Virus record (IMG/VR): IMGVR_UViG_3300021057_000128
Span: 1-32,261 of that record
Strand: one strand, 5' to 3'
Length of the DNA stretch: 32,261 bases
Source of the DNA: a virus
Positions 3,249 through 9,700 of this stretch are shown piece after piece. Position 1 is the first letter of the stretch. Every line of letters begins with the position of its first letter. Position numbers and translations under genes: made by a program. The notes beneath the pieces were generated by a model. The model made no database searches. It saw only the letters and a list, made by a program, of their open reading frames with translations, and was not told the origin of the DNA.

Positions 3249-3770
3249 ATGAAGTTCCGCTACCAGCGACGGGTAAGTGGGGGCAGCAAGCCCATTCACT
3301 ACCTCGACACCCAAGTCATATTCACCAACGAAGAAAAAGCCATTATCAAAACAATGCGCCTTGAGCGCGACAGGATATTCTCGGTCGTTCCTGAGACGGT
3401 CGAGACTTGGGACAATCTCTATGGCGGTGTGCGCGGCCGCCTTTTTGACGCCTTTATCGTGGTGTGCCGCTTTGCCATTCTTCCCGTCTCCTTTATTTTA
3501 GGAACCTTCGTACAGTTTTCTCTCGGGTTTATCGTTTTCGTCGCGATGGCAACCCTCATTATTTACGACATACGCAACGCCCGAAAAATTCAGACATTAA
3601 CCAAGCCAAAAGAGTATACGGCTACCGACTATATCAACGGGCAAACGATCACCTTCGCCGCCCATACCGGCGCTCACATCCGCCACACCCAACAACAATG
3701 CATCCTCGGGCTTCAGGAGTTTAAGCGCCAGCTTGCGATACACATGGAAGAGGTGGAGGAGGAAACATGA
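3249..3770 (+). CDS. Putative two-helix membrane protein
   Basis: 173 residues. ATG 3249 is chosen because GGAGGCG (3239-3245) precedes it closely and the longer frame from 3183 would run through the terminator. Residues about 68-110 contain two adjacent hydrophobic segments (FIVVCRFAILPVSFIL and GFIVFVAMATLIIY), giving a hairpin in the membrane with both soluble parts on the same side. The C-terminus is acidic (MEEVEEET). Its stop overlaps the ATPase start (ATGA). Because it is coupled to a VirD4/TraG-like ATPase it may anchor that protein to the membrane, as small membrane partners do in conjugation systems; this is inference, and no family was recognised. Confidence 0.7.
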   Translation: MKFRYQRRVSGGSKPIHYLDTQVIFTNEEKAIIKTMRLERDRIFSVVPETVETWDNLYGGVRGRLFDAFIVVCRFAILPVSFILGTFVQFSLGFIVFVAMATLIIYDIRNARKIQTLTKPKEYTATDYINGQTITFAAHTGAHIRHTQQQCILGLQEFKRQLAIHMEEVEEET

Positions 3771-5692
3771 CCGACGACGAATTTGCCACCGACGTGATAC
3801 AAACCCATGTGGCAACGCATGGAAAATACCCAACCGATTCGCTTCTGGACGCCATGTTCAAGTTTTGTGGCGTCATGTTTTTAGCCGAAGGGTACGCCGA
3901 CCCACCCGAAAAACCCGAGAGTAATAACCCGATTGTGCAAGGACGCTATTTAGACCAACTCGAAGCATGGAACCGCAAGCGGGCAAACATACACGTCACC
4001 CTCCCCCTGCTCAAAGAGGCCGTGCTGTTGCTTTTGAATGTGATACAAAGCGCCCTCCCTAATGACCTGTTTTTTGACGACTGGAACGAGCGCGAGTTTC
4101 CCGGCACGACGCCGCTCGGAGATCGCCTCCTTGCCCCGAACGAATTTACAAAACAAATATGCGCCTACATAAACGCCGAGCAGCTTATGAAACACAACCT
4201 CCTGCACCTCACGCGGGGGAAAATCTTTGAGAAAAAGATGGAGGGCAAACAAGGACTGGAGCTTTTGGCTGACGGGCCAGTGGGATGGTTTCTTGAATAT
4301 CCCGTACCCCTCGCACCCGCCGATTACGACACCCGATACAAACACTCCCTCGTGTGCGCCCGTACCGGGCACGGCAAGACCCAACTCTTGGGCAACCTCA
4401 TTCTGTGGGATTTGCAGCAGGACAACCCACCGGCCACCGTCGTACTCGATTCGACCGGGAGCTTTGTGCAGACCATTTCAAAGCTCAAGCTCTTTGACCC
4501 CACCGTGGACGGCTCCCTCGCCGACCGGCTCATTTACATAGACCCAACCGACACATTCCCCCCTGCCATGTCGTTGCTTTCAATGGCCCAACAAGGAGCC
4601 CAGGCCGAAACCCAAGTCAACGCCCTTATCGCCTATGCGCTTTCCGACGCCTCAATTCCCTTAACAGGTTTGCAAGAGACGATGATGAGCTTTGTCATTC
4701 GTCTCGTTATGAGCATGAACGGCAACCTTCAGACTATGCACGACGTTCTCAACGAAAATCCCTCAAAAGGCGAATATGCGAACAGCCGGTATAAAGCACA
4801 AATCGAAACACTCGACGAAACCGCACAGGGCTACTTTAGAAACGAATTTTTCGGCAAGCACACGGCGGCCACCAAGCGGCAGATTGCCACAAAGTTGTAC
4901 GGCATCCTCACCAACCCAACCCTGCTTAACGTGTACGGCGCACGGGTGAACAAAATCGACTGGTATGAAGCTCTAAACAAGCGAGCTATCATTTTGTGCA
5001 ACACCGCTGAGGGGGAACTGGACGAAAAGCATATCGACTTCTCACGCTACCTTATCGCTCAGGTTATGTTAGCCGTTTTCAAACGCCAGAAGGACAACCC
5101 CCAATACCGCGTCCCCACCTTCCTGTGGGTTGACGAAGCAGCGGGGATTGTCGATTCGACCTATGAACGCTTGCTCATTCGAGCGAGACAGCTCAAGTGC
5201 GGCACCTGTGCCTGCTTTCAGAGTTTCGGCCAGCTCGAACCCCAAAAGCTCCAAGACATGATGGGGAGCCAGACCAGCATCAAGTACATGGGCGGCCTCG
5301 ACCCAACCGAGGCCCGCCGCCTTGCCGCCCGGATGGGAAAAACGGACCCGAACCAAATCCTCGAAACCCAGCCCTTCCAGTACGTCGTCTACTACGAGGG
5401 CCACATGAGCCACGGGGCAACCATGCAACTCCCCCGAGGCGTTCTCCAAAACCAACCCCCGATGGACGACGCCGCCTATGCGCTCCTCATGCAGCGCAAC
5501 CGCGAACGGTTCGGTGTGAAGCCCGAGCCAGCTCCCCCGACTGGCAAAGAACTAGCCACCGCGTACGTTGCCGCTGCAAAGACAGTCCAAGAAACAGTAC
5601 CCCAGCCCCCGCCCCCTAAGAGCACAGTCACGCCTGCGCCTTCCGAGCCTTCCCCACAGCGGAAGCGCCCCAAAGCCGGGACTTCGTGGTAA
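3767..5692 (+). CDS. VirD4/TraG/HerA-like coupling ATPase (TraD-type DNA pump)
   Basis: 641 residues. Walker A is ARTGHGKT (about 198-205), Walker B lies in FLWVDEAAG (about 445-455), and a conserved block follows (FQSFGQLEPQKLQDMMGSQT, then YMGGLDPTEARRLA and KTDPNQIL). That order is typical of T4SS coupling proteins and HerA/FtsK-family ATPases, including the TraG/TraD C-terminal region. Such proteins hexamerise and drive DNA through a membrane pore. The N-terminal 190 residues have no clear membrane helices, so the separate membrane protein encoded just upstream (3249) could supply the anchor. The Pro-rich tail (PQPPPPKSTVTPAPSEPSPQ) is disordered. No relaxase or mating-pore genes are seen nearby. 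It is intact; its role in a phage is unusual. Confidence 0.8.
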   Translation: MTDDEFATDVIQTHVATHGKYPTDSLLDAMFKFCGVMFLAEGYADPPEKPESNNPIVQGRYLDQLEAWNRKRANIHVTLPLLKEAVLLLLNVIQSALPNDLFFDDWNEREFPGTTPLGDRLLAPNEFTKQICAYINAEQLMKHNLLHLTRGKIFEKKMEGKQGLELLADGPVGWFLEYPVPLAPADYDTRYKHSLVCARTGHGKTQLLGNLILWDLQQDNPPATVVLDSTGSFVQTISKLKLFDPTVDGSLADRLIYIDPTDTFPPAMSLLSMAQQGAQAETQVNALIAYALSDASIPLTGLQETMMSFVIRLVMSMNGNLQTMHDVLNENPSKGEYANSRYKAQIETLDETAQGYFRNEFFGKHTAATKRQIATKLYGILTNPTLLNVYGARVNKIDWYEALNKRAIILCNTAEGELDEKHIDFSRYLIAQVMLAVFKRQKDNPQYRVPTFLWVDEAAGIVDSTYERLLIRARQLKCGTCACFQSFGQLEPQKLQDMMGSQTSIKYMGGLDPTEARRLAARMGKTDPNQILETQPFQYVVYYEGHMSHGATMQLPRGVLQNQPPMDDAAYALLMQRNRERFGVKPEPAPPTGKELATAYVAAAKTVQETVPQPPPPKSTVTPAPSEPSPQRKRPKAGTSW

Positions 5693-7053: not shown

Positions 7054-7170
7054 GTCGTAACTCCTTTGCTAGTCCTGGCCCACAATAGCACAAGCAAAAT
7101 CCGAGTAAACGTGCGGGAAGTTCGCACAAGTGCTTACTTGTTACTATTGCGTGCTATAATTGTTTGCACT
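7054..7170. promoter_or_regulatory. Divergent control region with two inverted repeats
   Basis: Between the minus-strand gene and the HNH gene lie GTGCG-N7-CGCAC (7111-7127) and ACAAGT-N4-ACTTGT (7126-7141), partly overlapping. A minus-strand promoter can be read as TTTACT, 16 nt, TATTGT (weak). The inverted repeats sit between the two start regions, as operators for a shared repressor would. Confidence 0.45.
7152..7160 (+). promoter_or_regulatory. Extended -10 promoter TGCTATAAT (leaderless HNH gene)
   Basis: Perfect TGn plus TATAAT. The last base is 11 nt before the ATG at 7171, so the transcript should begin at or within a few nt of the start codon, and no Shine-Dalgarno is present. Confidence 0.7.
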
Positions 7171-7680
7171 ATGGAGATCAAACAAAGCGAGTTAAGGACG
7201 CTTTTTGCTTACGACCCCGCGACAGGCGAACTGATTAGGAGGATCTCGTGCCCGCCCGCCGTTAAGGGCCAAAAAGTGGGAACGCTAAACCGTGCCGGTT
7301 ATCTCGTCTGCGCCATACGCCGCAAGCAATATCGTGTCTCTCGCCTTATATGGATGATGCACTTTGGAGACATCCCAAAAGGAAAGCAAATCGACCACAT
7401 CGACAGGAACCGGCTCAATAACCGCATTGAGAACCTGCGTTTGGTGACGCCTTCTCAAAACTCACAAAACCGAACTTATCGTGCGAACAAGACAGGAGTT
7501 GTGGGAGTGTCCTGGTATTCGCCCGAACGTAGGTGGAATGCGCAAATCGGAATCAACGGCCGTCTCATCTATCTTGGGAGATTCAAGACATTTGTGGAGG
7601 CCGTCGATGCGAGGAAAGCTGCCGAACAGAAGTACTACTATGGTACTGTTCTCCCAGAGACCTTGAGTAGTGGAGGTTGA
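7171..7680 (+). CDS. HNH endonuclease with AP2-like DNA-binding domain
   Basis: 169 residues from the ATG at 7171; the frame is open upstream, but that part overlaps the minus-strand gene and its control region. Residues 1-55 form a small N-terminal domain (FAYDPATGELIRR) common in phage HNH enzymes. The HNH core is at 64-95 (KQIDHIDRNRLNNRIENLRL) with conserved His and Asn. Residues 104-155 (NKTGVVGVSWYSPERRWNAQ, then GINGRLIYLGRFKTFVEAV) are an AP2-like DNA-binding fold. It is a free-standing phage endonuclease that nicks or cuts DNA, possibly for homing, packaging or host-DNA breakdown. It overlaps the primase frame by 11 nt. Confidence 0.88.
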   Translation: MEIKQSELRTLFAYDPATGELIRRISCPPAVKGQKVGTLNRAGYLVCAIRRKQYRVSRLIWMMHFGDIPKGKQIDHIDRNRLNNRIENLRLVTPSQNSQNRTYRANKTGVVGVSWYSPERRWNAQIGINGRLIYLGRFKTFVEAVDARKAAEQKYYYGTVLPETLSSGG

Positions 7681-9221: not shown

Positions 9222-9222
9222 T
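9214..9222 (+). promoter_or_regulatory. Extended -10 promoter TGCTATAAT (small RNA)
   Basis: Perfect TGn plus TATAAT at the very 3' end of the DUF3768 gene, with no start codon or Shine-Dalgarno for the next 100 nt; the transcript would begin near 9229 and end at the terminator at 9330. Confidence 0.65.
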
Positions 9223-9228
9223 TGAGTT

Positions 9229-9330
9229 TGCCTAGCGTGGAAGCATCTGGTTGGAGCCAGCTCTGTAACACGAGGGCCAACAAGAAACGGCGCTAGCTAC
9301 CTTGCCTCGCACATGCGGGGCTTTCTTTTT
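9229..9330 (+). ncRNA. Candidate small structured RNA of about 100 nt
   Basis: This interval is delimited by a strong promoter and a strong terminator and holds no ORF of note. CTAGCG (9232-9237) pairs with CGCTAG (9291-9296) as a closing stem; inside, GTTGG (9250-9254) pairs with CCAAC (9277-9281), and CTC with GAG at 9261-9263/9272-9274. An alternative hairpin CTGG/CCAG (9247-9260) competes. I recognise no known RNA family. It could be a regulatory or antisense RNA, or a decoy. Confidence 0.55.
9304..9330 (+). terminator. Rho-independent terminator ending the small RNA
   Basis: GCCTCGC/GCGGGGC (one G-T pair) with a 4-nt loop ACAT, then TTTCTTTTT. The last T also starts the next promoter's TGG extension, so terminator and promoter overlap. 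Confidence 0.85.
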
Positions 9331-9338
9331 GGTATAAT
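9330..9338 (+). promoter_or_regulatory. Extended -10 promoter TGGTATAAT (large structured RNA)
   Basis: Perfect extended -10 element overlapping the preceding terminator's T-run. The predicted start, about 9345, matches the start of a 20-bp stem, so this is a natural 5' end for the structured RNA downstream. Confidence 0.65.
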
Positions 9339-9342
9339 GAAT

Positions 9343-9664
9343 ATGAAGGTTGGCTGGTGGGGGAAACTTAGGTCAGGGGTGCGTGCGAATAGTAGGAGAA
9401 ATGGGTTGAAGGCTGCTCATTCGAGACAATAGCTTTCTCACCACCTACCGCGAGAAATCGCACCTTCCCCACAAGCCAGTCTTCATGTGTTGAGTGAGGG
9501 AGTGGCGGAATAGGTAGACGCAACGACAAAGCGACTATGGTGGATGCTTGGGGGTACCGCCCAGTCAATCCATGCGAGGTGACAACTCCGAGGTGACCAA
9601 TGGCGGTGACAGTCCGCATGCAAAGGAGAACTCGGCAAATCCTCGCCTTCCTCACTCAGCACAT
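9343..9664 (+). ncRNA. Candidate large structured RNA with tRNA-Leu-like ends
   Basis: Two long helices lie end to end. Helix A: 9343-9362 with 9467-9486, about 20 pairs with two wobbles and one mismatch. Helix B: 9485-9502 with 9647-9664, about 18 pairs. Inside A there are further stems (GGTGCG/CGCACC; CTCATTCGAG hairpin). B contains a tRNA-Leu-like 5' end (acceptor GAGGGAG 9496-9502, D-arm 9503-9521) and a 3' end (CAAATC, CTCGC, CTTCCTC, A at 9636-9654), with a matching T-stem strand GCGAG at 9574-9578. The anticodon arm and T-loop are replaced by extra sequence, including three GGTGAC copies 13-14 nt apart. It is not a normal tRNA, tmRNA or recognised group I intron. Confidence 0.6.
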
Positions 9665-9685
9665 CTATAACCATGCATTGTTATT

Positions 9686-9694
9686 TGGTATAGT
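9686..9694 (+). promoter_or_regulatory. Extended -10 promoter TGGTATAGT (leaderless gene)
   Basis: TGG plus TATAGT (5 of 6), ending 6 nt before the ATG at 9701. Transcription should start at the start codon itself, and no Shine-Dalgarno exists. Confidence 0.6.
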
Positions 9695-9700
9695 AGACGC

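Follow-up and report, generated by a model that had tools for sequence, protein, structure and literature searches.

The mimicry of tRNAs is already known as a principle from tmRNA, from the bacterial Y RNA YrlA and from the ends of plant viruses. YrlA (RF02553) is described, in the summary of Chen et al. 2014 given in PMC7790460, as a tRNA-like head on a stem that plays no role in translation, and tmRNA (RF00023) has tRNA-like ends around a replaced middle. In Listeria phages, the small RNAs rliG and rli62 (RF02415 and RF01486) are encoded in the intergenic region that separates the late activator gene from the late genes, RliG being a known Listeria ncRNA (PMC8079631). The RNA analysed here is part of the window, a stretch of 32,261 bases that represents an IMG/VR virus record with genes for an integrase, a coupling protein, ArdC and terminase. 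It belongs to a large and widespread family of phage RNAs that is none of the tRNA mimics tested and is apparently uncatalogued, as it lacks an Rfam model among those tested; no earlier description was found in the open literature, outside of which most preprints and subscription papers lie.

Comparison with described RNAs

The window RNA resembles bacterial tRNA-Leu of class II in a near-identical D-arm, U8-G9, an acceptor stem of 7 bp and residues C56-A-A-A-U60 of the T-loop. In contrast to tRNA-Leu, the family has no anticodon arm and no recognisable cloverleaf, its T-stem comprises 6 bp, its T-loop either reads UGCAAAU or is split by an additional arm, residue A73 is not conserved, the CCA end is almost never encoded and the acceptor is closed in one of two subtypes. 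The initial annotation had excluded a tRNA, a tmRNA and a group I intron by inspection, and this exclusion was borne out: ARAGORN detected neither a tRNA nor a tmRNA in the window RNA, and Rfam release 15, including its tRNA model, yielded no match even at an E-value of 5. A group I intron in a tRNA gene was rejected on the same Rfam result and on the T-loop insert of only about 55 nt. The interpretation of the RNA as a tRNA mimic was upheld.

With YrlA, as far as that RNA is characterised in the cited account, the family shares a tRNA-like domain on a stem, but it differs in having hypervariable inserts and in not being matched by the RF02553 covariance model. With tmRNA it shares the tRNA-like ends around a replaced middle; it differs in the Leu-type D-arm, in the negative search of the window and in inserts of down to 28 nt that leave no room for a tag reading frame. 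The suggestion of a tmRNA-like or primer RNA, likewise made initially, is not supported in view of the negative tmRNA search, the short inserts of some members and the subtype II elements, to which the window RNA belongs, exposing no acceptor end. In Enterococcus phage phiSHEF16 (L263), a phage tmRNA at 2145-2495 (130 bits, E-value 7.5e-51) ends directly at the start of a subtype I element, so that tmRNA and element are distinct entities; this tmRNA is missing from the annotation table of the record. The rliG and rli62 RNAs occupy the same intergenic place but are located just upstream of the element, and phage A118 contains an rliG version without the element. The mcrA RNA (RF03010) is a neighbour in the same phage region but represents a separate motif of 51 nt downstream of the element.

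Structure and borders of the window RNA

The intergenic region 9222-9700 combines a terminator-like hairpin, an extended -10 element and the structured RNA, all on the plus strand. The hairpin at 9304-9321 consists of 7 bp followed by TTTCTTTTT, resembles an intrinsic terminator closing the upstream gene and precedes the putative promoter of the RNA. The perfect extended -10 element that had been noted just before the RNA is present as TGGTATAATG at 9330-9339; no matching -35 region was found, and a start near 9345 would be expected if the element functions as a promoter. Two ORFs of 95 and 63 amino acids on the minus strand of the RNA interval are mechanical predictions without support. The RNA is followed by a small ORF and the genes for ArdC, an HNH protein, TerS and TerL, and the gene of a tyrosine integrase is located about 6.4 kb from it. 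An ORF resembling an HNH/AP2-type homing endonuclease was additionally observed at 7140-7680, in the interval between the coupling-protein and primase genes.

Thermodynamic folding of the 322 nt from 9343 to 9664 recovered two end-to-end domains with a free energy of -132.2 kcal/mol, compared with -107.0 +/- 5.5 kcal/mol for dinucleotide shuffles (z -4.6; none of 100 as good). Each domain on its own exceeded all 200 dinucleotide shuffles, with z -4.3 for domain I (9343-9485) and z -3.8 for domain II (9486-9664). With respect to the two helices of about 20 and 18 pairs that had been annotated, domain I is indeed a long hairpin closed by about 20 pairs with one bulge, whereas the basal helix of domain II comprises 17 pairs in the minimum free energy structure. 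No homologue of domain I was found, and a strongly folded upstream region was detected at only 8 of 67 subtype II loci, which indicates that domain I is not a general feature of the family. Its inner helix GGTGCG/CGCACC, after which AAAU occurs late, is reminiscent of another split T-arm in degenerate form.

The tRNA-Leu-like parts previously recognised in domain II were confirmed. The acceptor stem is formed by GAGGGAG at 9496-9502 and CTTCCTC at 9647-9653, the next base being an A at the place of position 73, with no CCA. The acceptor helix continues outward by 11 further pairs in a basal extension, the 5' strand of which (9486-9495) pairs with 9654-9663 of the 3' strand (9654-9664). U8-G9, read as TG, and the tRNA-Leu-type D-arm GCGGAATAGGTAGACGC together span 9503-9521 (TGGCGGAATAGGTAGACGC), with the D-stem formed by 9505-9507 and 9519-9521. 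They are followed by a hypervariable insert of 52 nt (insert 1, 9522-9573) that replaces both the anticodon arm and the variable arm. The T-stem consists of GCGAGG (9574-9579) and CCTCGC (9641-9646), that is 6 bp rather than 5. The statement that anticodon arm and T-loop had been replaced holds for the former; the T-loop (9580-9640) is interrupted instead, with U54 at 9580 and C56-U60 (CAAAT) at 9636-9640 retained on either side of an inserted arm of 55 nt (9581-9635). This arm is closed by CGAG (9589-9592) and CTCG (9631-9634). The three reported GGTGAC copies start at 9578, 9592 and 9605, with spacings of 14 and 13 nt, and two of them start inside the arm.

Identification of the family and covariation analysis

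A blastn search with the whole RNA against phages and plasmids detected no direct homologue, three over-specific DNA patterns derived from the window gave either no match or only real tRNA-Leu genes and one odd tRNA, and phages with a related terminase or ArdC contained no match at the equivalent place. When IMG/VR was scanned with the D-arm motif AGTGGCGGAATNGGTAGACGC, more than 120 loci were obtained, about 50 of which were classified as non-tRNA by ARAGORN. Many of these share the same layout of acceptor, Leu-type D-arm, variable middle, T-arm and acceptor. Two kinds of T-loop occur among the D-arm loci, namely GGTGCAAATCC and a version in which GGTGACTATACGAGT is followed by CTCG(G/T)CAAATCC. 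A second scan with GGTGACTATACGAGT as the key returned at least 120 matches, and most of the contexts listed again represented such elements. The set for the covariation analysis was selected by the D-arm and T-loop motifs only, with no pairing criterion, and comprised 103 distinct sequences (subtype I, 35; subtype II, 68).

Covariation among relatives, a check proposed in the initial annotation, strongly supported the annotated helices in this set. All seven acceptor pairs are formed in 92 of the 103 elements and at least six in 96; the latter corresponds to 89% of subtype I and 97% of subtype II, compared with 9-10% when the partners were shuffled. Each of the acceptor positions 1 to 6 is represented by all four Watson-Crick pair types, the T-stem is completely paired (6/6) in 99 of the 103 elements, and the second pair of the D-stem switches from C-G to U-A among relatives. 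The compensatory changes, as established by comparison of the elements, indicate that selection acts on pairing at the RNA level.

A covariance model (R1) was built from 21 subtype II elements, with the window excluded from the training; as this alignment had been preselected for full pairing, only the 103-element set counts as unbiased evidence of covariation. The model detected exactly one site in the window, at 9496-9653, with 75.8 bits and an E-value of 1.2e-17. True tRNA-Leu genes reached 32-42 bits and subtype I elements 37-57 bits with the same model, so that the score of the window does not result from tRNA likeness alone. In agreement with subtype II, the window RNA contains a 7-bp acceptor stem flanking a Leu-type D-arm, a 6-bp T-stem, a T-loop that is split after U54 and ends with CTCG[G/T]CAAAT, and an acceptor helix extended outward. 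The exact GGTGACTATACGAGT after the T-stem is replaced by GGTGACAACTCCGAGG, in which GGTGAC and CGAG are kept and the middle differs; since GGTGACTATACGAGT served as a search key for subtype II and the model still assigns an E-value of 1e-17, the exact string is not family-defining. The string TATACGAGT is likewise not present in exact form, the window version retaining GGTGAC, CGAG...CTCGG and CAAAT. The window RNA is thus almost certainly a structured, non-tRNA member of the family.

Subtypes and acceptor ends

The two subtypes differ in the T-loop and in the extent of the acceptor helix. Subtype I, found in SPP1, Listeria PSA and phi3T, is characterised by a UGCAAAU T-loop and a helix of just 7 bp, pairing beyond the seventh acceptor pair being at chance level as in tRNA. 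In subtype II, which includes the window RNA, the T-loop carries the extra arm and the acceptor helix is prolonged outward by 14 or more positions (z 3.0-9.5 at each), so that this subtype is predicted to form a tRNA-like head on a closed stalk. Position 73, the discriminator, is not conserved across the 103 elements and just 3 of them encode CCA, which makes ordinary charging by a synthetase unlikely. The closed stalk of subtype II further argues against charging and against maturation by RNase P or RNase Z at the acceptor ends, and processing of the 5' end is disfavoured for this subtype. Subtype I, with its different end, may work differently. As the T-loop insertion of subtype II removes position 55, a normal elbow geometry is only assumed for it.

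Hypervariable inserts

According to the comparison of loci, which establishes this architecture at the level of the sequence, the family combines a constant scaffold with two hypervariable inserts, of which the first takes the place of the anticodon arm and the second lies in the T-loop. Members differ in the length of insert 1, which is between 28 and 190 nt, and also widely in that of the T-loop insert. The flank comparison is dominated by weakly related pairs, the clear case being the sister loci L034 and L152 of related phages: the upstream 60 nt are 95% and the scaffolds 96% identical, a compensatory change in the D-stem separates the two loci, and the similarity of either insert does not exceed that of shuffled sequence. 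Likewise, loci L247, L267 and L270 combine near-identical scaffolds with unrelated inserts. Several phages contain two to four matches. The inserts may serve as payload, as spacer or as a surface in an arms race.

A stem shared by the insert 1 sequences was not supported by any consistent pairing across members, antisense complementarity between the RNA and other parts of the window did not exceed chance, and hairpins with a T-loop-like UGNNANY sequence showed only a slight excess within the inserts. The idea that insert 1 mimics the 5' end of 23S rRNA was considered and rejected: the match was reached by 1 in 1000 controls against the first 280 nt but by 22 in 1000 against 23S and 16S rRNA together, and no other member had it.

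Distribution and genomic neighbourhood

Among named phages, subtype I is present in SPP1, phi3T, Listeria phages PSA, LP-101 and LP-LmcIH1-8, Lactobacillus phages Lenus and Sha1, Leuconostoc phage Ln-9, Enterococcus phages phiSHEF16 and EG-TP1, Brochothrix phage BtpYZU01 and Latilactobacillus phage TMW 1.1397 P1. Subtype II was identified in genomes of Antrihabitans, Arthrobacter, Salipiger and a Cytophagales MAG. The 21-base form of the subtype II key occurs at 4 places in 257 billion bases of bacterial genomes but at 55 of 112 newly fetched viral loci, which characterises it as mostly viral. A divergent member is also present in a distant relative of the window phage with a similar primase-ArdC region (G100), though at another genomic position. 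Annotated features cover almost none of the D-arm hits in the named phage records, and most of these hits have no annotated RNA over them; the re-annotation of SPP1 (PMC6316719) mentions neither a tRNA nor gene 10, and the SPP1 element is located between the head genes 9 and 11. If these assignments are true, one RNA family is common to phages of Firmicutes, Actinobacteria, Alphaproteobacteria and Bacteroidota and is unseen by current annotation. As the element occurs in SPP1 and Listeria PSA, which have been investigated for decades, its function is testable at once in B. subtilis.

The elements are mostly intergenic, and an ORF on the same strand follows at 80 of the 103 loci. Transcriptional activators, HNH endonucleases and terminase subunits are the commonest neighbour families of subtype I, whereas the neighbours of subtype II are diverse. 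In seven phages (TMW 1.1397 P1, EG-TP1, LP-101, LP-LmcIH1-8, Sha1, BtpYZU01 and PSA) the element comes after the gene for a late activator (or a regulator), and an HNH or terS gene is next wherever the record continues. A terminase-proximal packaging RNA was nevertheless rejected, as there is a positional trend only and many members are located elsewhere. The region around the element in Listeria phages also contains rliG or rli62 together with the mcrA RNA, and since RliG is a known ncRNA, this neighbourhood is transcribed. Among the 35 elements of subtype I, 4 are followed by an intrinsic terminator, as is 1 among the 68 of subtype II; these figures are near the control rates, and a standalone sRNA with its own terminator is therefore unsupported as a general rule. 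In phi3T (L260), a DUF3800-VIII RNA motif was observed at 4358-4423, about 1.2 kb downstream of the element.

Proposed function and alternative explanations

The interpretation that we favour, with even chances of being correct, is that 9486-9664 specifies a noncoding mimic of the tRNA elbow of subtype II, the corner of which is held by a putative host elbow-binding factor, with the inserts diversifying. The RNA would be transcribed from the extended -10 element at 9330 and would fold as a tRNA-like corner on a long stalk, in which the conserved D-arm and T-arm might form an elbow for recognition by a host factor; RNase P, RNase Z, a tRNA-modifying enzyme or an exonuclease complex are candidates. 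The closed stalk would make the RNA a competitor or an anchor, i.e. a binder and not a substrate, and meanwhile the inserts could diversify. With a closed acceptor and neither a conserved discriminator nor CCA, the RNA should not be charged or used in translation. The predicted mimic may sequester a host tRNA enzyme, as already proposed in the initial annotation. It counts against the elbow interpretation that the D-arm, on its own, may have been retained for some other purpose. Rather tentatively, the fixed tRNA-like scaffold might display two rapidly exchanged payloads and thereby constitute a modular RNA system with which phages of four or more bacterial phyla take over the host or counter its defences. 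If the family assignment is correct, nature would also supply an instance of tRNA mimicry without charging and a scaffold tolerating complete exchange of its inserts.

The 7-bp helices of subtype I, which stop like those of a real tRNA, and the position of the element between RinA/ArpU-type late activator and HNH-terS genes in several Firmicutes phages, or between head genes in SPP1, would also suit an RNA punctuation signal that is excised by host RNase P and RNase Z to separate early or regulatory from late mRNA. We consider this unlikely, as the covarying continuation of the acceptor helix in subtype II should block 5' maturation there, and the invariant D-arm and the hypervariable inserts are left unexplained. 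The constant scaffold with its rapidly replaced inserts and the several copies per phage could alternatively reflect a decoy against tRNA-directed defence, i.e. a tRNA-Leu mimic that occupies anti-phage nucleases or tRNA-modifying toxins and diversifies its inserts in an arms race. However, the anticodon arm is the target of most known tRNA-cutting defence nucleases and is absent from the family, so that a decoy appears improbable, too. It is still harder to see in the element a cis-acting leader, for instance for transcription antitermination or translation control of downstream genes: the mostly intergenic location, the same-strand ORF that usually comes next and the RNA-rich region beside mcrA RNA and rliG or rli62 in Listeria phages would fit, but the downstream genes differ widely and terminators are about as rare as in the controls.

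Very little probability is assigned to a Y-RNA-like scaffold in which a Ro60-like ring protein binds the stalk and the tRNA-like head addresses an exonuclease. The general layout corresponds to that of YrlA, and one member (L105) is located 47 nt upstream of a gene for a Ro60-like DUF2828 protein; on the other hand, RF02553 gave no significant match in the window and none over the cut-off in 36 member or control records, a TROVE gene was present in 0 of the 36 records, no Ro60/TROVE partner was recognised in the window, and DUF2828 exceeded its cut-off in about 4 of 60 member records compared with 1 of 26 others, which is no clear enrichment. A partner protein might still be encoded by the host. 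Finally, a decayed tRNA-Leu gene or attachment-site relic, suggested by the near-identity of the D-arm to tRNA-Leu and by the phage-encoded tyrosine integrase, can practically be dismissed: compensatory changes in more than 90 diverse elements refute decay, non-tRNA features (the 6-bp T-stem and the split T-loop) are conserved, and the integrase gene is distant from the RNA.

Additional tRNA-like RNAs in the phage records

Several further structures were observed beside the family. The 94-kb phage record L105, in which the DUF2828 gene adjoins a subtype I element, contains a sub-threshold YrlA match (E-value 1.5e-8) about 3 kb away. Tailed phages encode tRNA-Leu-like genes with a normal T-loop UUCRANU and a 5-bp T-stem (L004 at 2788-2907 on the minus strand, as well as L045, L096, L110, L128 and L139), in which the anticodon and variable region is over-long and abnormal; they possibly represent a third group or tRNAs with odd inserts. 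Just after the element of SPP1 (L258), a minimal tRNA-like hairpin set, ACGGACG...CGGGTTCAATTCCCG...GTCCGT, is located at 3542-3590 and is only weakly matched by the tmRNA model. About 25-150 nt upstream of the element in L126, and similarly in L215, another tRNA-like RNA that folds strongly was detected; its acceptor is extended over a long distance, its T-loop is normal and its D-arm is different (AGCCAAAUGGUAAAGGCU in L126), which suggests that mimics of other tRNAs exist, too.
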